49,804 nt of DNA from Treponema sp. (GTDB lineage Bacteria > Spirochaetota > Spirochaetia > Treponematales > Breznakiellaceae), in contig JAISAE010000006.1 of the NCBI GenBank assembly GCA_031266875.1, positions 1 to 49,804 of the forward strand, written 5' to 3'. Numbering within the stretch: position 1 is the first letter of the stretch; every line of letters begins with the position of its first letter. The translations under genes were made by a program, and so were the position numbers. The notes under the pieces were generated by a model. That model worked only from the letters and a program-made list of their open reading frames with translations, did not search any database and was not told where the DNA came from. Positions 6,091 to 40,432 of the stretch are shown piece after piece.

Positions 6091-6783
6091 TTACAGCCCA
6101 TGTTGCCCCGGAACCGCCTCCACAGGCTTGGCAACCGTCTGTTTATTGATCTGATGCGCCAGATACCCGGCTCCGAACCCATTGTCAATATTGACCACAG
6201 CAACCCCAGGTGCGCAGGCAGTGAGCATCCCCAATAGCGCGGAGAGTCCGCCGAATGACGCGCCATACCCTACGCTTACCGGCAGCGCAATAACCGGCGC
6301 CGATACCAGCCCCGCGATAACGCCCGCAAGCGCGCCCTCCATTCCAGCAGCCGCGACTATAACATTCGCTTTCCTGATGTCTTCCAGACACGAAAACAGC
6401 CGGTGTATGCCCGCAACGCCCACATCAGGAAAGATTTCCGCGGCGCTCCCTAAAAACCGCGCCGTAAGCAGAGCCTCCCGCGCTATTGGTAAGTCAGAAG
6501 TACCCGCGCATACCACCGCGATAAGCCCGCCGGCGTTCTCCGCTAGACGCCCAACCGTGAGTATGCCCGATATACTGTCATATTCCGCGTCAGGGTAGCG
6601 ATGGCAAATCCGTTCGGCAAGTTCTTTCTGCGCTCGTGTCGCCAGAACCGGAATGTCCCCTTCGCGCATCCGCGTGATAATTGACTCAGACTGTTCAAGC
6701 GTTTTTCCCGCGCAGTACACCGCTTCCGGGCAGCCTGTCCGGGACGCCCGGTCCTTGTCGATACACGCAAAATCCCCATCCAT
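6091..6783 (-). CDS. larB: nickel-pincer cofactor biosynthesis carboxylase LarB
   Basis: A 230-residue protein of the AIR-carboxylase (PurE-like) superfamily. In established LarB enzymes it carboxylates and hydrolyses nicotinic acid adenine dinucleotide to start synthesis of the nickel-pincer nucleotide, the cofactor of lactate racemase and related enzymes. The C-terminal half shows the PurE-like signature (VVCAGTSDLPIAREA, DVGVAGIHRL, VVAAAGMEGALAGVIAGLVSAPVIALPVSVGYGASFGG, NIDNGFGAGY). It starts three bases after the larE stop, so it is in the operon DUF3842-larE-larB. No larC or lactate-racemase homologue is in the window. Confidence 0.92.
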   Translation of the reverse strand: MDGDFACIDKDRASRTGCPEAVYCAGKTLEQSESIITRMREGDIPVLATRAQKELAERICHRYPDAEYDSISGILTVGRLAENAGGLIAVVCAGTSDLPIAREALLTARFLGSAAEIFPDVGVAGIHRLFSCLEDIRKANVIVAAAGMEGALAGVIAGLVSAPVIALPVSVGYGASFGGLSALLGMLTACAPGVAVVNIDNGFGAGYLAHQINKQTVAKPVEAVPGQHGL

Positions 6784-6786
6784 AGC

Positions 6787-7626
6787 TTACGCTCCGCTGC
6801 CAGCACTGATAAGCCGGTTAAGACTGCCCATACAATAGCCTTCCAGTTCAAAGGCAACATACACAAAGCCAAACGATTTAAGCGTTTGCGAAATACGATC
6901 AAGCAGCGCCTCATCGAAAAAACGTGGACGCTCTTCAGGCGACACTTCAATGCGGGCAAGGTCCCCGTGCGAGCGCACCCGAAACTGCCTGAATCCCAGC
7001 GCACGCAGCGCGTCTTCGGAACGCTCAATACGCGCTAGTTTTCCCGTGTCTATCTTCTCGCCATAGGGAATTCGGGACGCGAGACAGGCGTATGCTGGTT
7101 TGTCCCATACGGCAAGCTGGTAACGACGGGCAAGTTCGCGGATGTCGTTCTTTTGTAAACGCGCTTCACGAAGCGGACTGACAATCCCCAGTTCGGAAAG
7201 CGCGGTAAGCCCCGGACGGTAATCTCCCTGATCATCAAGGTTTGAGCCGTCAAAAACCGTGTGTATACCATGTTCTTCCGCAGTCCGCACGACCGCGCCG
7301 AACTCCAGTTTCTTGCAGAAATAGCAGCGGTTCACGGGATTCTCCGCGACCTCAGCGTCGATTTCATCTTCCTGCACGAGGATATGGGTGATGCCGATTT
7401 GGGCGGCAACGCGGCTGGCGCACAAAAGTTCGCTTTGGGGCAGCATAGGCGAGACAATAGTAACCGCGATTGCCTTGTCGCCCAGGGCTTCGTGCGCGGC
7501 ATAACACAAGAGCGAGCTGTCAACGCCGCCGGAAAAAGCAATGGCAGCGCCGCCAGACCTGCCTGCCTGCGCGATAGTTCCTAACAAGGTATGGTATTTT
7601 TGGTCAAGGGAAAGATGTTCAGACAC
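6787..7626 (-). CDS. larE: ATP-dependent sacrificial sulfur transferase LarE
   Basis: A 279-residue N-type ATP pyrophosphatase that inserts sulfur into the nickel-pincer precursor. The PP-loop SGGVDSS is at residues 32-38. NRCYFCKK and YACLASRIPYG supply three cysteines; family knowledge links this three-cysteine pattern to [4Fe-4S]-bearing LarE, as opposed to single-cysteine sacrificial forms. The GTG start at 7626 has GGAG six bases upstream; longer in-frame extensions lack homology. A 7-bp hairpin at 7685-7703 sits in the 94-base gap after DUF3842. larB follows within three bases. Confidence 0.92.
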   Translation of the reverse strand: MSEHLSLDQKYHTLLGTIAQAGRSGGAAIAFSGGVDSSLLCYAAHEALGDKAIAVTIVSPMLPQSELLCASRVAAQIGITHILVQEDEIDAEVAENPVNRCYFCKKLEFGAVVRTAEEHGIHTVFDGSNLDDQGDYRPGLTALSELGIVSPLREARLQKNDIRELARRYQLAVWDKPAYACLASRIPYGEKIDTGKLARIERSEDALRALGFRQFRVRSHGDLARIEVSPEERPRFFDEALLDRISQTLKSFGFVYVAFELEGYCMGSLNRLISAGSGA

Positions 7627-7720
7627 AATAACTCCAGTAATACAAGGGGATATAAGGAGTTCGTCTCCGCTGCGCTCATGCGCTCTGCGGCTTCGTGCCG
7701 CAGGTTTCATTCGCACTATG

Positions 7721-8155
7721 CTATAGTGCGCGTTTTACGTCAAGTCGTTTTTTAAGATAAGCAACAGCGTCGTCAATCAGTTTGGCAAGCGGCGCGCCTT
7801 CAAAACCCGCGATATGAAAGTGGTCGTTTTGTAAGGGGAGCAAGACCAGTTCACCCGGGGCGCTCAAGACCGCTTCCGCCATACCCGCGCTAATCTCACC
7901 CATAAGGCTATTGGCAATCACAATGCCAATGGGACCCACAATAAAATCACCCAGAGAAACAGACACCTTCACGGCGTTCTCACCCGAAGCGCCCCGATTC
8001 GCGCCCGCTTTAATCATGCGCTCAGTAGCGGACGCATTCGCTCCCAGCGCGATAATTTCCATAGCTTCCATCCCCGCGATTTCTTTAAGGCGCGGAATCA
8101 AAGCCGCCCCAATTCCGCCGCCCATACCATCAATAACCACAATGCGTATATTCAT
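7721..8155 (-). CDS. DUF3842 family protein
   Basis: A 144-residue protein with a glycine-rich nucleotide-binding-like start (IVVIDGMGGGIGAALIP) and a GPIGIVIANSLMGEIS segment. I recognise it as DUF3842, a family of unknown function found in anaerobes. Its place as first gene before larE and larB suggests a role in nickel-pincer metabolism; this is an inference from context. There is no Shine-Dalgarno. A promoter with the -10 five bases before the ATG predicts leaderless translation. Confidence 0.85.
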   Translation of the reverse strand: MNIRIVVIDGMGGGIGAALIPRLKEIAGMEAMEIIALGANASATERMIKAGANRGASGENAVKVSVSLGDFIVGPIGIVIANSLMGEISAGMAEAVLSAPGELVLLPLQNDHFHIAGFEGAPLAKLIDDAVAYLKKRLDVKRAL

Positions 8156-8189: not shown

Positions 8190-9140
8190 GCCTCTCGCTC
8201 AGCCCCTAAGCTACCCCTTGATCAGACGCTGACGTCCTTTAGATCAGCGCCTAAGCTACCCCTACATCAGTGCCTGATGTAAAGGACATCAGGTGCTGAT
8301 CTCCTTTAGATCAGGGTCTGATCTCCTTTAGATCAGGCGCTGATCTCCTTTACGTCAGACGCTGATCTACCCCTACACCAGGGTCTGAGCTACTATACCT
8401 CAGCGCCTAAGCTACCCCTACATCAGACGCTGATGTAAAGGACATCAGCGCCTAAGCTACCCCTACGTCAGACGATGATGTAAAGGACATCAGGCTCTGA
8501 TCTCCTTTACATCAGGTGCTGATCTCCTTTAGATCAGGCTCCGATCTCCTTTAGATCAGGCGCTGATCTCCTTTACGTCAGACGCTGATCTACCCCTACA
8601 CCAGGGTCTGACCTACCATACATCAACGCCTAAGCTACCCCTACATCAGGGTCTGATGTCCTTTACATCAGGCGCTGACGTCCTTTCCGTCAGACGCTGA
8701 TCTACCCCTCGATCAGCGGCTGACGTACCATAGCTCAGCGCCTAAGCTACCCCTACGTCAGACGCTGATGTCCTTTACATCAGACGCTGATCTCCTTTAC
8801 ATCAGGCTCCGATCTCCTTTACGTCAGACGCTGATCTACACCTAGATCAGCGTCTTACATAACATACCTCAGCGCCTAAGCTACCACTAAATCATGCGCT
8901 GATCTCCTTTACATCAGGCGTTGATGTCCTTTACATCAGGCGCTGATCTCCTTTACATCAGGCGTTGACGTCCTTTACGTCAGACGCTGATCTACCCCTA
9001 GATCAGCGTCTGACCTACCATACCTCAGCGCCTAAGCTACCCCTACATCAGGCGCTGATGTCCCTCTAGGCAGGAGCTTTACACCTACCCCTCGAACAGG
9101 GGCTGAGCTACCCCTCGAACAGGGGCTGAGTTACCCCACA
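8190..9140. repeat. array of about 40 tandem 22-bp palindromic units
   Basis: The gene-free kilobase is filled by near-22-bp units of the form CGCTGATCTCCTTTACATCAGG. Within a unit, seven bases such as CTGATGT pair with ACATCAG around a five-base loop CCTTT. Arms change together in many units: CTGATCT/AGATCAG, CTGACGT/ACGTCAG, CTGATGT/ACATCAG. Other units carry loops built on ACCCC, and some are mismatched hybrids. Three units (8274-8292, 8430-8448, 8475-8493) carry the loop AAAGG, i.e. the unit in reverse complement. There are no spacers of unique sequence, so it is not CRISPR. It lies between the 3' end of the helicase gene and the lar promoter, both reading leftward. Confidence 0.9.
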
Positions 9141-9179: not shown

Positions 9180-10874
9180 TTACTTTCTAAACAAATTCAA
9201 GATACGAGACAAGACGCCTTTCTTTTGAACCGGCTTTACCTCAGCGTCTGTGTGCGCTTGGACTACCGGCGCGGGAGGTGGCGTGGCAGATAGTGGCGTG
9301 GTTTGTGGTTCTACTGGAGCAGCCCGCGTTATATCCTCCTGCTCCGGCTTTTTGCGCCGCGGTTTACTCCGCTCGGCTTGCTTACCGGCTCCGCCATACT
9401 TCTGCCGGTAATAGGCCATGCGTTCATCAAACGACAGTTTACTCAGGTCGTATCTGTCTGTTTGCCCGTCGCTTCTGGTTTCAGTCCGGGCTTGCGTAAC
9501 GCCGCGTTTTTTAGTGCCGCGCTGCTTCATGCTGCGTGTGTGCCGCCCTGACGCGGCAGATACTGAACGTTCCGGCGCGTTATGTTTGGGGCCGCTTTGG
9601 GCGGAGCGTTCTGGATTGCGCCACTGCCTGCTTTCGTTCCCGCGTTTTTCCGCGCTCCGTCCGCGACCAGCGCGTTCTTCCCTGTGAGACCGCTGTTCAT
9701 CATAAAGATCAGTATGAAGCCGCATCCCCTCGCTCCAGTCTTCCCCGTAGCTCTCCGAGCTGGCTGTCTCCGACGGAATTTTCTTGCCGATGTACCGTTC
9801 TATTGCGGGAAGCGCGTACACATCCTGCTCGCTTGCCAGGGTAATGGCCTTACCGGTTTTACCGGCGCGGGCTGTGCGTCCGATACGATGAACGTAGTTC
9901 TCAGCCTCTGTTGGTAAATCGTAGTTCACCACGAGACTCAGACCCTCAATGTCCAGCCCACGCGCCGCTACATCAGTCGCCACAAGGTAGCGCACTGCGC
10001 CGGCCTTAACATCCTCAATGATCTTGAGGCGCTTTGCTTGAGGCAGGTCGCCAATGATGAACTCACACTCAAAGCCATTCAGTTGCAGACGTTTTGCCAG
10101 AATCTCCACATAACGTTTTGTGTTACAAAAAATCACGGCGCTTTCCGGCTGTTCCTGTCGCATGATACCCAGAAGTAGTTTTATCTTGTTTTCGGAAGGC
10201 ACGTGGTAAAGGAGCTGCTCAGCCTCTTCAACCGTAACTGATTCAGGCTCAACAGCGATCTCAAAGGGAGATTTGGTATACTCCCACGCAAGGTTCTTGA
10301 CCCAAGCATTGAGTGTGGCGCTGAAGAGCATAGTCTGACGCTGATCAATGGGCGACACTACTTTGATGAGCTTACGCAGGTCAGGGTAAAAACCCATGTC
10401 GAACATACGATCTGCCTCATCCAGCACGAGAAACGCGATATCCATGAGGTTCATCTGGCCGTTCTGATTGAGGTCAAGCACCCGTCCTGGGGTTCCCACC
10501 AGAATCTGCGCGTTATCCTTGAGCAGTCGCTGCTGTAGTCCGTAACCGACTCCGCCATAAAAGCTGCCGATTTTGAACGGCAGGTATGTGCCGATGAGCT
10601 TAGCCTCTTCCTCAATCTGCACGGCCAACTCGCGGGTGGGAGCCATGATGAGCGCCTTTTTCCCATGGAGAGGCGATTCATTCAGGAGTCGCTGCAAGAT
10701 TACGATGAGGTACGCGGCGGTTTTTCCGGTTCCAGTCTGAGACTGAACGTAAAGGTCCTGCCCTCCAAAAGCATGGACCAGTACCTGCTCCTGAACCGGT
10801 GTACAGGTGATGTAACCCGACTCGGTGATACCCCGTTGGAGGTCGGGGTGTAAATTAAGTTCTGTGAATTCCAT
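9180..10874 (-). CDS. DEAD-box ATP-dependent RNA helicase
   Basis: A 564-residue protein: a helicase core of about 385 residues plus a long basic low-complexity tail. All core motifs are visible: Q motif (FTELNLHPDLQRGI), Walker A as SQTGTGKT, PTRELA, GTPGRVLDL, DEAD, SAT, ARGLDIEG and HRIGRTARAG. Such enzymes unwind short RNA duplexes in ribosome assembly, RNA decay and cold adaptation. The tail is rich in Arg, Glu, Ser and Gln and probably binds RNA. The ATG at 10874 begins the family N-terminus; the longer frame would need a TTG start. There is no Shine-Dalgarno. TATAAT lies three bases before the ATG, so the true promoter register is unclear. Confidence 0.95.
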   Translation of the reverse strand: MEFTELNLHPDLQRGITESGYITCTPVQEQVLVHAFGGQDLYVQSQTGTGKTAAYLIVILQRLLNESPLHGKKALIMAPTRELAVQIEEEAKLIGTYLPFKIGSFYGGVGYGLQQRLLKDNAQILVGTPGRVLDLNQNGQMNLMDIAFLVLDEADRMFDMGFYPDLRKLIKVVSPIDQRQTMLFSATLNAWVKNLAWEYTKSPFEIAVEPESVTVEEAEQLLYHVPSENKIKLLLGIMRQEQPESAVIFCNTKRYVEILAKRLQLNGFECEFIIGDLPQAKRLKIIEDVKAGAVRYLVATDVAARGLDIEGLSLVVNYDLPTEAENYVHRIGRTARAGKTGKAITLASEQDVYALPAIERYIGKKIPSETASSESYGEDWSEGMRLHTDLYDEQRSHREERAGRGRSAEKRGNESRQWRNPERSAQSGPKHNAPERSVSAASGRHTRSMKQRGTKKRGVTQARTETRSDGQTDRYDLSKLSFDERMAYYRQKYGGAGKQAERSKPRRKKPEQEDITRAAPVEPQTTPLSATPPPAPVVQAHTDAEVKPVQKKGVLSRILNLFRK

Positions 10875-10941
10875 ATTATTATAGAAGAAAGTATACAAGA
10901 CTTGGTTATGAATAGTTAAGAAGGACAAAGGACGGGTTACC

Positions 10942-24735: not shown

Positions 24736-26832
24736 TTATTCCCAGCCGCCCGCGTCGCCGTCTTGTGCGCTGTCCAGGGTAACGCCCTCTCCAGCCGTGG
24801 TATTGCGTTTCTTGCCGGGTGAACTGTCCACATAGACCGCGTGCCCGCCATTGCTGGCGGTGTTTTTCAAGCCGCTCTCAGCGTTAGACCCGTAAATGAT
24901 CCCGCCAGATTCCTTGGTAAACGTGCCGCTGTCCACATACACCCCGCCGCCGTAGGAGGAGGCGGAGGCGTTGGTGGAGGAAGCGGTATTGCCGCTGATT
25001 GCTCCGCCTCTCATCGTAAACGTACCACTGGACACAAACACCCCGCCGCCTTTGGAGGAGGCGGAGGAGTAGTAGTAGGAGGAGGTGGTGGTGGCAGTAT
25101 TGCCGCTGATTGCTCCGCCGCTCATCGTAAACGTACCACCGGACACAAACACCCCGCCGCCGTATGAGGAGTTGGAGTAGGTGGAAGCGGTATTGCCGCT
25201 GATCTCCCCGCCGCTCATCGTAAACGTCGCGCTGCTGTACACATACACCCCGCCGCCGTAGGAGGCAGTATTGCCGCTGATTGCTCCGCCGCTCATCGTA
25301 AACGTTCCGCTGTCGGACACATACACCCCGCCGCCGTAGGAGTAGACGCCGTATGAGGAGTTGGATGCGGAGGCAGTATTGCCGCTGATTTCCCCGCCGC
25401 TCATCGTAAACGTTCCGTTGCTGGACACAAACACCCCGCCGCCGTAGGAGGCGTTGGTGGAGGAAGCGGTATTGCCGCTGATTGCTCCGCCTCTCATCGT
25501 AAACGTTCCGTTGCTGGACACAAACACCCCGCCGCCGTAGGAGTAGGCGTTGGATGCGGAGGCAGTATTGCCGCTGATCTTCGAGCCGGTTTCCATTACC
25601 AACGCTCCCCCGCTATTCACCTTAACCAGCGAAGCAGTATTGTTGCTCCGTCCCTGCAAGGTAATGTTGTTTCCCAGGGTCAGGATAACGTTGCTTTCCA
25701 CGGTAAAGGATGAACCGTTTGAACTCAAGCTGATCGTGTGTTCCGTGTCCCCGCCTGTGAGGATGACGTTTACTTTTTTGCCTTCATAATTAAACGCCGT
25801 AGGCGCGATAGTCTCCTCTGCGTTTAAGGTGATGGTGTACGCGCCGCCATCTTCCGCGTTGGCGCTTATCCATGCCAACGAGTCCGCAAGGGAACTGGAA
25901 GGCGCTGGCGTGATCGCTGCCCACCTGGCAAAAAACTCCTTATGCCCCGTACTGCCCGCGGGAATTGCGCCAATTGTCGCGCCGCTAAAGTCCGCGTGCT
26001 CATACCAGCCCATAAAAACGTAGCCCTCACGGGAAGGCGCGGTAAGCAGCGTTAGAGCCGCGTCCGTGCTGCGGTACGAGCTGGTTTCCGTCTCCCCTTC
26101 CCCAAAATGGTAGGTGATAAGATAGGTAAGATTGAGGTCTTCCACGGTCAGCGTATAGGTCTTTGCGCTCGTGAGATGCGCCCATACATGGACTGCTTCG
26201 GAAATCGCCCCATAAAGCCGGCTGTCGTTATACAGCTTGATGACAAAGCGGTACGTCCCGGCAGGATAGTCCCCGTTAAGGACAAGCTTGTCGTCAGCGG
26301 GCGTGATAGAACCGGCTTCCTCCCCGTCCTTAAACACCCGCGCCTCTGTTATACCAGTATCGGGCGGCAGCTCTATGACCAGATTGATCGCGCCGTCTCC
26401 CTCCAAAACAGGCTTAACCGCAAACGTCAGGGTATTTGTTTCAGTAAGGCTGATAGTCTGTTCCCCTATAGTCCCGCTGAGAATAAGCTCGTTGTCTTTA
26501 TAGCCTTTAAGGGTAAAGCTCCATGTCCCGGTATCATTAAGATACACCGTGAAACCCTGGTCGCTGGAAAACTCCTTCAGCAGGGTTTCCCCGGCTCCCT
26601 GTTTCCCGCCCCACAATTCCCACGCGCTCGTGTCTTCCAGCGCGGCCGTGGGGCTTACGGTGCGTCCCGCGGCCGTCTCTATGACCACGCGGACAGCCGC
26701 CTTTCCCTCATGTGCCGAAGCCTGCTCAGGTTCCGGCGCGGTCATATCGCACGCGATGAAAAGCATCAATAGAGAAAGCACCAGGGAAAAGAGCGAAAGT
26801 ATCGCGCTCATGCGCAGTGTCTTTTTGTTCAT
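24736..26832 (-). CDS. surface lipoprotein with InlB B-repeat and GGxISGNTA beta-helix repeats
   Basis: A 698-residue putative lipoprotein. The signal peptide ends in a lipobox LFIAC. About 200 residues of beta domain follow, then one InlB B-type repeat (YLITYHFGEGETE...GYVFMGWYEHADFSG...FFARWA). The C-terminal half has about eight repeats of the form GGGVYVSSNGTFTMSGGEISGNTAS, predicted to form a right-handed beta-helix. Linkers of Ser/Ala/Tyr/Asn between repeats vary in length. Related repeats are common in treponemal cell-surface proteins of unknown ligand. A Shine-Dalgarno (AAGGAGG) precedes the ATG. It starts 11 bases after the stop of the larger relative and so is second in a two-gene operon. 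Confidence 0.83.
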   Translation of the reverse strand: MNKKTLRMSAILSLFSLVLSLLMLFIACDMTAPEPEQASAHEGKAAVRVVIETAAGRTVSPTAALEDTSAWELWGGKQGAGETLLKEFSSDQGFTVYLNDTGTWSFTLKGYKDNELILSGTIGEQTISLTETNTLTFAVKPVLEGDGAINLVIELPPDTGITEARVFKDGEEAGSITPADDKLVLNGDYPAGTYRFVIKLYNDSRLYGAISEAVHVWAHLTSAKTYTLTVEDLNLTYLITYHFGEGETETSSYRSTDAALTLLTAPSREGYVFMGWYEHADFSGATIGAIPAGSTGHKEFFARWAAITPAPSSSLADSLAWISANAEDGGAYTITLNAEETIAPTAFNYEGKKVNVILTGGDTEHTISLSSNGSSFTVESNVILTLGNNITLQGRSNNTASLVKVNSGGALVMETGSKISGNTASASNAYSYGGGVFVSSNGTFTMRGGAISGNTASSTNASYGGGVFVSSNGTFTMSGGEISGNTASASNSSYGVYSYGGGVYVSDSGTFTMSGGAISGNTASYGGGVYVYSSATFTMSGGEISGNTASTYSNSSYGGGVFVSGGTFTMSGGAISGNTATTTSSYYYSSASSKGGGVFVSSGTFTMRGGAISGNTASSTNASASSYGGGVYVDSGTFTKESGGIIYGSNAESGLKNTASNGGHAVYVDSSPGKKRNTTAGEGVTLDSAQDGDAGGWE

Positions 26833-26843
26833 GTTTTGCCTCC

Positions 26844-29723
26844 TTAATGAACGTTAATCGTAACCCGGCATCGCGCCGAGAGTAGGTCGCCGGTGCTTGT
26901 TTCAACAAACACCGACAGTTCGTAAATGCCCTGGGTCTTTGTGTTTGCCGCCAGCGTATAGCTTGACGAAGCCGCGCTGCTTATCTCTTCGCCGTCCCAG
27001 TACCATACATAAGAATCGTATCCGTCTCCCGCGTTGAATGTTGCTGATCCATCCACGAACAGGGTCGCGTTGGCAAGCGGGGGCGTATTCAGCACGGGCT
27101 GTAGAGTTACCTCAAGCGTTGCCGGATATTCTGTGTCCCAGCCGCTCCATGAACCGCTGTCCAGGGTAACACCCGCTCCAGCTGTACTGTTACGCTCTCT
27201 GGCAGGTGAACTGTCCACATAGACCGCGTTGCCATTGCCGCTGCTGGCAGTGTTTTTCAAGCCGCTGTCAGCATCCAGCCCGTAGATGATCCCGTCAGAC
27301 TGTTTGATGAACGCCGCGCTGCTGGCAACATACACCCCGCCGCCGTCATACACCCCGCCGCCGTCGTAGGAGGAGCCGGAGGCTGTATTGCCGCCGATTG
27401 CTCCGTCGCTCATCGTAAACGTGCCGCCGCTGGCAACATACACCCCGCCGCCGTAGGAGTAGGAGGAGTGGGCGGAGGCGGAGACAGTATTGCCGCTAAT
27501 TGCTCCGTCGCTCATCGTAAACGTCCCGCTGGCAACATACACCCCGCCGCCGTAGGAGTAGGAGGTAGAGGAAGCGGAATTGGAAGCAGTATTGCCGCTG
27601 ATTTCACCACCGCTCATCGTAAATGTCGCGCTGCTGGCAACATACACCCCGCCACCGGAGGCGGAGACAGTATTGCCGCTAATTGCTCCGTCGCTCATCG
27701 TAAACGTCCCGCCGCTGGCAACATACACCCCGCCGCCGTAGGAGCCGGAGCCGGAGGCAGTATTGCCGCTGATCTCTCCGCCGTTCATCGTAAACGTCCC
27801 GCTGCTGTCCACAGACACCCCGCCGCCGTAGGAGCCGGAGCCGGAGGCAGTATTGCCGCTGATCTCTCCGCCGTTCATCGTAAACGTCCCGCCGCTGGCA
27901 ACATACACCCCGCCGCCGTAGGAGTAGTAGGAGCCGGAGCTGGAGCCGGAGGCAGAGGCAGTATTGCCGCTGATCTCTCCGCCGTTCATCGTAAACGTCG
28001 CGCCACTGTCCACATACACCCCGCCGCCGTAGGAGTAGTAGCCGACGCGGCCGGAGCCGGAGGCAGAGGCAGTATTGCCGCTGATCTCTCCGCCGTTCAT
28101 CGTAAACGTCGCGCCACTGCCCACAGACACCCCTCTGCCGCTGGAATTGCCGCTGATTGTTCCGCCGCTCATTGTAAACGTCGCGTTACTACCCACAGAC
28201 ACCCCGCCGCTGATTGTTCCGTTGCTCATCGTAAACGTCGCGCTATCGCCCACAGACACGCTGCCGCTGATTGCTCCGCCGCTCATCGTAAACGTACCAG
28301 ACACAGACACCCCGCTGCCTTTATTGCCGGTGAGCTTCGAGCCGGTTTCCATTGCCAGGGTTCCCCCGTAGCTCACGTTCACTAGTGGATCCGAATTGTC
28401 GCTCCGCCCCCGCAAGGTAAGGTTGTTTCCCAGGGTCAGGGTAACGCCACTTTCCACCGTAAAGAGCGAGCCGCTTGAGCTTAAGTCAACGATCCGCTCC
28501 GTGTCCCCGCCGTCAATGCTTATACTGACCGTTTTCTCGTAGGAAAGGGTCTTGGGACCCATGGTTTCATTAGCGTTTAAGGTAATGACATAAACGCCGC
28601 CCTCCTCCGTGTTTGAATCAAGCCATTCAAGCGCGCCCGCTAAGGTTGAGCTAGGCACTGCTGTAGGGATGCTCCACTTGGCATAGAGCGTTATATCTGA
28701 AGTAACCCAGAACGAAGCGCCCGCTGCATACGAGGTCCCCGCGCCGTCCTCGCTGGTGTTCCACCAGGCGAATGTATACCCGTCTTTGCTCAACCCGGTC
28801 CCCTGGGCGAGCGTTATACGTGTCCCGCTCGCCGCTGTCTGCACGTCAGGCGTTGTCCCGCTGCCTCCATTCGCGTCGTACGTTACCGTATACTGTGAGG
28901 CGGCTACCCACGCGGCGTAGAGCGTTATGTTAGCAGTAACCGTGAACGAAGCGCCCGCTGCATACGAGGTTCCGGTCCCCGAAGCATTGGTGTTCCACCC
29001 GCTGAACGTATAGCCTGCCTTGGTCAGGCCGGTCCCATCCGCAAGGGCTATAAGCACACCATTGTTCACGGTCTGCGCGGCGGGCGCGGTTCCGCTGCCT
29101 CCATTCACGTCATACGTTACGGTGTACTGGACACCAGAGGCGTCTATCCATATAGCGTAGAGCGTTATGTTAGCAGTAACCGTGAGCGAAGCGCCCGCTG
29201 CATACGAGGTTCCGGTCCCCGAAGCATTGGTGTTCCACCCGGCGAATGTATACCCGTCTTTGCTCAACCCGCTTCCATCCGCGAGGGCTATAAGCACGCC
29301 GCTGTTCACGGTCTTCGCCGCAGGCGCGGTTCCGTTTCCCCCGTTCACGTCATACGTTACGGTATACTGGGCGCTTGAGGCGTCTATCCATATAGCGTAG
29401 AGCGTTATGTTAGCAGTAACCGTGAACGAAGCGCCCCCGGCATACGAAGTTCCCGTACCTGAAGCGTTGGTGTTCCACCCGCTGAACGTATACCCGGTGT
29501 TGGTCAGCCCGGTCCCGTTTGCGAGCGTTATGCTTGTTCCGCTCGCCGCTGTCTGCGCCGCGGGCGCGGTCCCGTTTCCCCCATTCGCGTCGTACGTTAC
29601 GGTATACTTTCCCGGATCATCCGGCTCGTTTTCATTCCCGCCGGATAAATCGCACGCGCCCAACACCAGAGTCAATGCCAGCGCTGCCGCCGCCATGCTC
29701 CAGAACCATTTCTTGTTTGTCAT
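26844..29723 (-). CDS. giant surface lipoprotein, four InlB B-repeats plus GGxISGNTA beta-helix
   Basis: A 959-residue protein. The signal peptide has lipobox LVLGAC. Four near-identical InlB B-repeats follow (YTVTYDANGGNGTAPAA...GYTFSGWNTNASGTGTSYAAGASFTVTANITLYAIW), then a linker, then about 13 beta-helix repeats (GGGVYVASGGTFTMNGGEISGNTAS). The C-terminus has an Ig-like tail (LEVTLQPVLNTPPLANATLFVDGSATFN...). The repeats are so alike at DNA level that the opposite strand is also open over 900 bases. The ATG at 29723 has GGGAG upstream; the 30-residue longer frame is not supported. Likely displayed on the outer membrane or in the periplasm; ligand unknown. Confidence 0.85.
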   Translation of the reverse strand: MTNKKWFWSMAAAALALTLVLGACDLSGGNENEPDDPGKYTVTYDANGGNGTAPAAQTAASGTSITLANGTGLTNTGYTFSGWNTNASGTGTSYAGGASFTVTANITLYAIWIDASSAQYTVTYDVNGGNGTAPAAKTVNSGVLIALADGSGLSKDGYTFAGWNTNASGTGTSYAAGASLTVTANITLYAIWIDASGVQYTVTYDVNGGSGTAPAAQTVNNGVLIALADGTGLTKAGYTFSGWNTNASGTGTSYAAGASFTVTANITLYAAWVAASQYTVTYDANGGSGTTPDVQTAASGTRITLAQGTGLSKDGYTFAWWNTSEDGAGTSYAAGASFWVTSDITLYAKWSIPTAVPSSTLAGALEWLDSNTEEGGVYVITLNANETMGPKTLSYEKTVSISIDGGDTERIVDLSSSGSLFTVESGVTLTLGNNLTLRGRSDNSDPLVNVSYGGTLAMETGSKLTGNKGSGVSVSGTFTMSGGAISGSVSVGDSATFTMSNGTISGGVSVGSNATFTMSGGTISGNSSGRGVSVGSGATFTMNGGEISGNTASASGSGRVGYYSYGGGVYVDSGATFTMNGGEISGNTASASGSSSGSYYSYGGGVYVASGGTFTMNGGEISGNTASGSGSYGGGVSVDSSGTFTMNGGEISGNTASGSGSYGGGVYVASGGTFTMSDGAISGNTVSASGGGVYVASSATFTMSGGEISGNTASNSASSTSYSYGGGVYVASGTFTMSDGAISGNTVSASAHSSYSYGGGVYVASGGTFTMSDGAIGGNTASGSSYDGGGVYDGGGVYVASSAAFIKQSDGIIYGLDADSGLKNTASSGNGNAVYVDSSPARERNSTAGAGVTLDSGSWSGWDTEYPATLEVTLQPVLNTPPLANATLFVDGSATFNAGDGYDSYVWYWDGEEISSAASSSYTLAANTKTQGIYELSVFVETSTGDLLSARCRVTINVH

Positions 29724-30589: not shown

Positions 30590-30710
30590 ATTCGCTACAG
30601 CGAATGAGTTATTAGCTATAGCTAATGAGTCGCTAGCTATAGCTAATGAGCCGTTAGCTGTAGCTAATGAGTTGTTAGCTATAGCGAATGGAGTATTCGT
30701 TATAGCGGAT
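30590..30710. repeat. six 21-bp tandem palindromic units
   Basis: Units begin at 30590, 30611, 30632, 30653, 30674 and 30695, exactly 21 bp apart. Each holds a 16-bp palindrome, for example ATTAGCTATAGCTAAT or ATTCGCTACAGCGAAT, separated by a five-base spacer ending GAG. Arms differ between units, mostly in a paired way. The array sits directly upstream of the gene starting at 30559. Confidence 0.88.
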
Positions 30711-30824: not shown

Positions 30825-30915
30825 GTCGTGAGTCGTGAGTCGTGAGTCGTGAGTCGTGAGTCGTGAGTCGTGAGTCGTGAGTCGTGAGTCGTGAGTCGTG
30901 AGTCGTGAGTCGTGA
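30825..30915. repeat. thirteen exact tandem copies of a 7-bp unit
   Basis: GTCGTGA is repeated 13 times without a mismatch over 91 bases, beginning two bases after the -10 hexamer of the promoter at 30795. The predicted start point lies inside the first repeat. Confidence 0.95.
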
Positions 30916-31034
30916 GGGCTGTTCTGTCTTTTTATCTGCCATTTTTAGAAGCATGAGACTATTCTATCCCATTTGCGAAAAGAATCAAGAGGTTTGTTAA
31001 AGATTAAGAATTTTTCAGCTTGGGCGCTGTTGAG

Positions 31035-31106
31035 GGTGTCAGACGTGGGTGTCAGAGACGCGGTAGGTGTCAGACGTGAGTGTCAGAGACGCGATGGGTG
31101 TCAGAC
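31035..31106. repeat. 31-bp tandem repeat, two copies plus a partial
   Basis: Units start at 31035, 31066 and 31097 and begin GGTGTCAGACGTG. Copies one and two differ at a few positions. Together with the 7-bp array this fills much of the stretch 30916-31285. A short open frame ending at about 31235 (GLLRTALLELGFPVKAG...) may be the tail of a lost gene. I see nothing else firm there. Confidence 0.75.
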
Positions 31107-31285
31107 ATGGGGTCAACGGGCTTTTGCGGACCGCTTTGCTGGAGCTAGGCTTCCCGGTCAAGGCTGGAAGGGGTCAGACACAGCAAGAAGCTGCTACTAA
31201 AGAAGCTCCGGTTGACACGATTAAAACGCCGTATTAGATTCAAAACCGTTGTAAAACCCTGGCTTTAGGCAGGGGTTACAGACAC

Positions 31286-40208: not shown

Positions 40209-40432
40209 CACGTTACTGCTCTATAACGAGCCTCGTTACTGGCCTATAACGTGTCGCGTTACTGCTCTATAACGAGCCTCGTTACTGGCCTATAACGTGT
40301 CACGTTACTGCTCTATAACGTGTCGCGTTACTGAGCTATAACGAACCTCGTTACTGCTCTATAACCTGTCGCGTTACTGCTCTATAACGAGCCTCGTTAC
40401 TGCTCTATAACCTGTCGCGTTACTGAGCTATA
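40209..40432. repeat. ten 23-bp tandem units with alternating palindromes
   Basis: Units of the form CGTTACTGCTCTATAACGAGC repeat at a 23-bp period. Two kinds of stem are possible: CGTTA/TAACG within a unit, and across unit borders TAACGAG-C-CTCGTTA or TAACGTG-T-CACGTTA. At the borders both arms change together. It fills the space between rsgA (ending at 40446) and ychF (starting at 40176), both reading leftward. Confidence 0.9.

Follow-up and report, generated by a model that had tools for sequence, protein, structure and literature searches.

Hairpin-unit array with REP-like anatomy in a Treponema genome and the 21-23 bp tandem arrays of its genus

REP elements, satellites and the array in the window

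REPs of 21-23 bp are substrates of RAYT-like HUH transposases, and GGAG, like the tetranucleotides named next, counts as a REP head. In the literature the head is GT(A/G)G and REPs mostly measure 21-24 nt (PMC2817692); members of the GTAG family have stems of 5-13 bp and loops of 2-20 nt, and head-to-tail REP dimers are rare, head-to-head or tail-to-tail pairs being normal (PMC3733652). Two further systems are relevant. Prokaryotic satellites have a median of 0-3 per Mb in most groups, and the available part of the survey describes no peak at 21-23 bp (Subirana and Messeguer, 2019; PMC6749651). The tandem repeats of archaeal Borgs, according to the part of the paper at hand, have units of 18, 20, 21 and 36 nt, are perfect and A-enriched, and many are found in ORFs (PMC9879509). 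Full-text literature searches, in which few subscription papers were covered, returned no paper on the arrays described below in termite treponemes.

The array lies in a stretch of 49,804 nucleotides, here called the window, which is part of a metagenome-assembled Treponema genome (2.6 Mb, 112 contigs, completeness 83%); this treponeme group, we infer from the records of related arrays, belongs to the Breznakiellaceae and has its setting in the termite gut. The features at the locus are the following.

8198..9136, minus strand: hairpin-unit array, about 41 complete 22/23-bp units, head to tail (TRF, unit segmentation, tag/stem/loop statistics)
8332..8348, minus strand: example unit with tag GGAG (8348-8345), arms ATCAG (8344-8340) and CTGAT (8336-8332) and loop CGC (8339-8337), read from the sequence with the unit model
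8274..8292, strand not given: in-register inverted unit CTGATGTAAAGGACATCAG; further ones at 8430-8448 and 8475-8493
9085..9137, minus strand: diverged 23-bp sub-block CTACCCCTCGAACAGGGGCTGAG at the helicase-side edge, 2.3 copies (TRF)
9180..10928, minus strand: DEAD-box helicase gene (Pfam), its 3' end (9180) facing the array
7721..8155, minus strand: DUF3842 gene, upstream of the larE-like and larB-like genes, its start (8155) facing the array
6787-7716: larE-like gene, downstream of the DUF3842 gene
6091-6783: larB-like gene, downstream of the DUF3842 gene

TRF calls positions 8288-9006 with period 22 and 32 copies, and flanking units extend the array; by profile alignment there are 43 units, whole or partial, and both arms are complete in 41. 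This agrees with the initial annotation, which had placed about forty 22-bp palindromic units at 8190-9140 and had found there neither an ORF nor CRISPR spacers. A coding repeat is ruled out by the period, as 22 is not a multiple of 3, and a CRISPR array by unit segmentation, in which units with 3-nt loops abut one another and repeats with unique spacers were not seen. Of the flanks then given, the 3' end of the helicase gene is right; on the other side, where the lar promoter had been placed, lies the start of the DUF3842 gene, which precedes the larE- and larB-like genes. A search of Rfam over the window gave two tRNAs as the only matches and none in the array, and a phage origin was set aside after viral contigs returned no match in a search for exact copies of one two-unit pattern.

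The same unit family forms at least seven further arrays at other loci of this genome, with flanks unrelated to each other. The eight arrays, all between genes, hold about 146 complete units, a dispersal of extragenic copies such as REPs have. Tandem units of 10-200 bp in at least four copies define a minisatellite, and the array at 8198-9136 answers to this definition. A BIME, whose REPs alternate in orientation, is a different arrangement, since the units here run head to tail and only about 6 of the 146 are inverted.

The stem of the unit

The initial annotation had read compensating changes into arms of the CTGATGT/ACATCAG type around CCTTT or an ACCCC-based loop. The array at 8198-9136 has 215 Watson-Crick pairs of 287 in this stem, against 210.9 ± 3.8 when 5' arms are matched with 3' arms from other units of the same array (P = 0.18). 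Since the arms thus pair no better than expected from random drift of one ancestral palindrome, the outcome on which the annotation itself had made its claim depend, compensating changes are unsupported. The stem count against shuffled units that it had proposed comes out at chance for total pairing; perfect 7-bp stems are in mild excess in this array only (9 vs 4.6 expected, P = 0.015), the seven other arrays having 2 vs 4.9 expected, with 529 Watson-Crick pairs vs 533 expected, which is zero excess. A C.C mismatch at position 6 of this stem occurs in 107 of the 146 units, among them the most frequent unit, CTGATCTCCTTTACATCAG. The template switching suggested at the time is compatible with a few in-register inverted units, three here and about three in sister arrays, and the idea of a structure under constraint was sound in that the stem-loop seems to matter, though through another dyad.

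This second dyad, (A)TCAG-NNN-CTGA(T), spans the junction between units. Its loop columns NNN are near random (1.5-1.7 bits), whereas most stem and tag columns carry 0.06-0.8 bits; two of its stem pairs are more variable, at 1.1-1.4 bits in one or both of the paired columns. In minus-strand reading the unit consists of a GGAG or GTAG tag, a 5-bp stem, a 3-nt loop, the other 5-bp arm and a GTA(AA/GGG) tail, and the tag is present in 121 of 146 units (GGAG in 76, GTAG in 45). Plus-strand C.A pairs, equivalent to G.T wobbles on the minus strand, occur 36 times and the reverse 15 times. With G.T allowed on the minus strand, 24 of 42 stems of the array at 8198-9136 are full, vs 18.4 ± 2.2 after re-pairing (P = 0.0075), and over all eight arrays 61 of 146, vs 55.7 ± 3.3, a weak difference (P = 0.07). 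On the minus strand TCAG-NNN-CTGA is the better-supported stem when set against CTGATGT/ACATCAG, and it is preferred for the variability of the loop and for the tag more than for the pairing statistics.

The anatomy of the minus-strand unit is REP-like: a head tetranucleotide of the GTAG/GGAG type, directly 5' of a palindrome, in a total of about 22 nt. Against the ranges reported for REPs, its 5-bp stem and 3-nt loop are those of the consensus, fully paired junctions being the 61 of 146 just given. The initial statement that no known element explains the array was therefore too strong. The family resembles REP/BIME elements (PMC2817692, PMC3733652) in its tag followed by a stem-loop, in its dispersed extragenic occurrence in many copies and in the presence of Y1_Tnp genes in the genome. 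It departs from them in its head-to-tail arrays of tens of units and its very short stem; moreover, a RAYT flanked by this unit was not found, and the other unit families of the genus are mostly untagged.

Arrays at the same site in congeners and across the genus

Arrays related to this family by DNA pattern are found in other metagenome-assembled genomes named Treponema sp. At the site between the helicase and DUF3842 genes, the congener G004 has the two genes adjacent, separated by a short array-free spacer; G001 has an unrelated 23-bp palindromic array of AGGAACTAGGTGTTAGTTCCTAG, G003 an irregular repeat region of longer period with GGTGCCAGAGAC motifs, and in G002 no array was called. A terminator-like hairpin after the helicase stop is kept in congeners, by eye, and the array at 8198-9136 appears, from the sequence comparison, to have replaced or disrupted part of it. 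Unrelated arrays adjoin the same gene in congeners at two more places (L093 vs L142, L015 vs L132).

An IS-like element of G001 has CAGCAATTCAAAGTATC inverted ends at both sides in two copies (L046 1231-2050, L050 1406-2060), and two more copies at contig starts (L048, L051) show one such end. In these copies arrays related to the present family occupy most of the place of the transposase gene, whose remaining fragment matched no Pfam model. In the treponeme genome Iy174_bin62 (L069 3560-3960) a mixed 23-bp array has TTACCTTGGACAAGACCCTTGCC beside CTGACCTCCCTT units related to this family.

The window holds two other arrays of similar period.

40211..40432: second array, unrelated to that at 8198-9136; 23-bp unit CGTTACTGCTCTATAACGTGTCG, stem CGTTA/TAACG, 9.7 copies
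30594..30706: third array; 21-bp unit GCTATAGCTAATGAGTTGTTA, dyad TTAGCTATAGCTAA, with relatives at L086:2665-2743 and L103:8894-8949

In 671 kb from five congeners, tandem matches that are exact over 14 nt or more number 0, 5, 94, 49, 66, 4 and 0 for the successive lags from 19 to 25, and harmonics appear at 42, 44 and 46. What is counted here is runs of repeats rather than independent arrays, and the loci picked for the present family mainly raise lag 22. Two-copy duplications that stand alone were rejected as array seeds; their number is small, with a certain excess at 21 and 42. A 372-kb sample of this genome, of DNA not picked for the unit family but with the window itself counted in, has 45 arrays with four or more copies. 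The period is 21-23 in 31 of them (21 in 18, 22 in one, 23 in 12), which makes about 83 per Mb, and with their harmonics these occupy 3.2% of bases; the assemblies come from short-read metagenomes, so that copy numbers are uncertain and contigs break at arrays. In 280 kb from two complete genomes that belong to the same taxonomic family there is a single array with four or more copies, its period being 15, and small samples (2-40 kb) from 29 other genera have a small number of such arrays, most of them in G008, G013, G029, G030 and G034. The arrays share with prokaryotic satellites the intergenic tandem layout and the many unrelated families, some of them dispersed; from the satellites in the available part of that survey they differ in density, in the sharp length rule and in dyad enrichment (PMC6749651). 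The nearest case is that of the Borg repeats, where unrelated arrays likewise arise independently and turn over fast, although the part of that paper at hand describes no fixed unit length such as the one found here (PMC9879509).

Clustering at a 74% cyclic-identity cut, with periods limited to 19-25 beforehand, gave about 60 unit families of mostly unrelated sequence, a few of which are likely related or subfamilies of one another. Dyads are enriched in the units relative to genomic windows (longest stem 4.3 vs 3.4, p = 5e-8; 18% vs 3% have a stem of 6 or more), and stems of at least 5 occur in 19 families vs 5.8 ± 2.1 expected, some families having none. Within arrays, variation is lower in stem columns (7.2%) than elsewhere (12.5%; Wilcoxon p = 2e-4), which column permutation confirms for stems of at least 4 (difference 0.053 vs -0.001 ± 0.015, 0 of 300) and of at least 5 (p = 0.007). 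All P values given in this work are single-test values, several tests having been chosen after the data were seen. Some arrays of the class fall in open frames and might code, and 21-bp arrays stay open by chance more often.

Repeats of other kinds were also observed. Two perfect heptamer arrays (100% identity) within open frames, GTCGTGA in 13.1 copies at 30825-30916 of the window and GTCTGCT in 14.6 copies at L086 2330-2431, are possibly contingency loci, and positions 24978-29608 of the window have long, surface-protein-like open frames rich in 90-240 bp repeats.

Origin of the arrays

On balance, and with some reserve, we favour the reading that the array at 8198-9136 is one locus of a dispersed REP-like family, and belongs to a clade-specific class of 21-23 bp arrays that arise by length-constrained, hairpin-dependent tandem amplification and are largely neutral or selfish. 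That RAYT transposases instead make them and spread them in trans as ordinary REP/BIME elements, with each unit as one RAYT target, seems to us unlikely, despite several points of agreement. The REP head stands directly 5' of the stem-loop in the 121 tagged units, and the unit length falls within the 21-24 nt of most described REPs (PMC2817692). Y1_Tnp genes number 6-11 per genome in the genus, 9 in G013, 61 in the array-bearing G030 and 0 in G031 and G032, both of them complete; across 20 genera, four or more such genes tend to go together with arrays (Fisher p = 0.013, an exploratory and hand-counted comparison). In G030 the core GGWCAGACC, which is that of its 21-bp array, occurs within 300 bp of RAYTs at 18-fold enrichment. 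The expansion of RAYT-like Y1_Tnp genes in this genome, to at least 61 matches in 2.2 Mb, is an observation in itself.

Against this stands the absence of the tag from most unit families: GTAG or GGAG is found at the hairpin in 5 of 60 (null 1.2 ± 1.1), so that the 21-23 bp class as a whole lacks the REP head-plus-hairpin and RAYT as sole cause was rejected. The head-to-tail order is the one that is rare among REP dimers (PMC3733652), and G026 has 28 Y1_Tnp genes but no 21-23 bp array in 16 kb. Moreover, no RAYT gene was found between inverted copies of this family's unit; a regular-expression scan of 22 RAYT loci of the genus, including five of the six in this genome, did not detect the unit. 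The RAYTs of the genus are flanked by GTGYCAGASAC instead. Within 400 bp of Y1_Tnp genes (L198-L219) this motif shows a 13-fold enrichment; it occurs also at 31035-31115 of the window, and is likely the true REP of these RAYTs. By estimate, arrays lie within about 550 bp of 5-7 of the 22 RAYTs vs about 3 expected from array density. In view of the GTGYCAGASAC flanks, the missing unit at 22 loci and the five tagged families of 60, RAYT is a candidate and not a finding.

SbcCD cuts hairpins in other bacteria. Neither an SbcD above cut-off nor a full-length SbcC-like match was found in any of the five congeners (G000-G004), all of which gave the MutS control, and a genus-wide loss of SbcCD is likely; G030 also has no clear SbcCD. 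As sole cause this loss was rejected, as G009, G014, G033 and G035 have no SbcD, yet their samples are free of arrays, and in G013 arrays coexist with SbcCD. SbcCD loss thus fits the five congeners and is neither necessary nor sufficient across the family.

Two functional readings were considered. Arrays as sites for dimeric DNA-binding proteins, spaced two turns apart on one face and serving chromosome organisation or regulation, would account for the period, the dyad symmetry and the arms being less variable than the rest; we hold this to be quite improbable, for a set of some 60 sequences, most of them unrelated, would call for many proteins, congeners have a different array or none in the corresponding intergenic space, and a gene-context preference is absent. 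By crude gene calls the gaps with arrays are tandem, divergent and convergent in numbers of 24:10:9, against 150:76:58 for all gaps; because the classes match the overall gap numbers the arrays show no tie to terminators or promoters, and a placement linked to transcription was rejected. A role under selection, as RNA or DNA hairpins that terminate transcription or stabilise mRNA 3' ends, is very improbable for the arrays; this reading has on its side the conserved stems and the lean of G.T wobbles to the minus strand, on which both neighbouring genes are encoded, and against it the proportional spread over gap classes, the pairing over all arrays barely above re-pairing and the apparent loss of part of a terminator-like hairpin to the array. 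This want of a link to terminators and promoters makes a mutational or selfish origin preferable.

Under the favoured reading, tandem amplification would act on a single-stranded hairpin of fixed length, with arrays arising and turning over. The sharp lengths of 21-23 bp, combined with mostly unrelated sequences, point to a length-measuring process; this length is about two turns of DNA and also that of one classical REP. Copying might proceed by slipped-strand or hairpin-copying synthesis, of which in-register inverted units would be the expected trace, and an HUH transposase of the RAYT kind is an alternative candidate for the ruler. Units with intact stems would be re-amplified while loop and linker drift, and this preference could keep stems conserved without a host function, most arrays being neutral or selfish. 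A more far-reaching version, in which a lineage-specific machinery arrays almost any short hairpin-former in units measured at 21-23 bp, either as two turns of DNA or as one transposase target of REP size, with fast intergenic turnover, is tentative and in our judgement rather less than probable.

Minisatellite unit lengths normally vary. That the intergenic arrays of this clade share one length, and mostly not one sequence, suggests a molecular ruler, and the enzyme could be sought by comparing array-bearing with array-free genera. The arrays probably add to the fragmentation of the assemblies of these genomes, and they illustrate REP-like hairpins turning into satellites.
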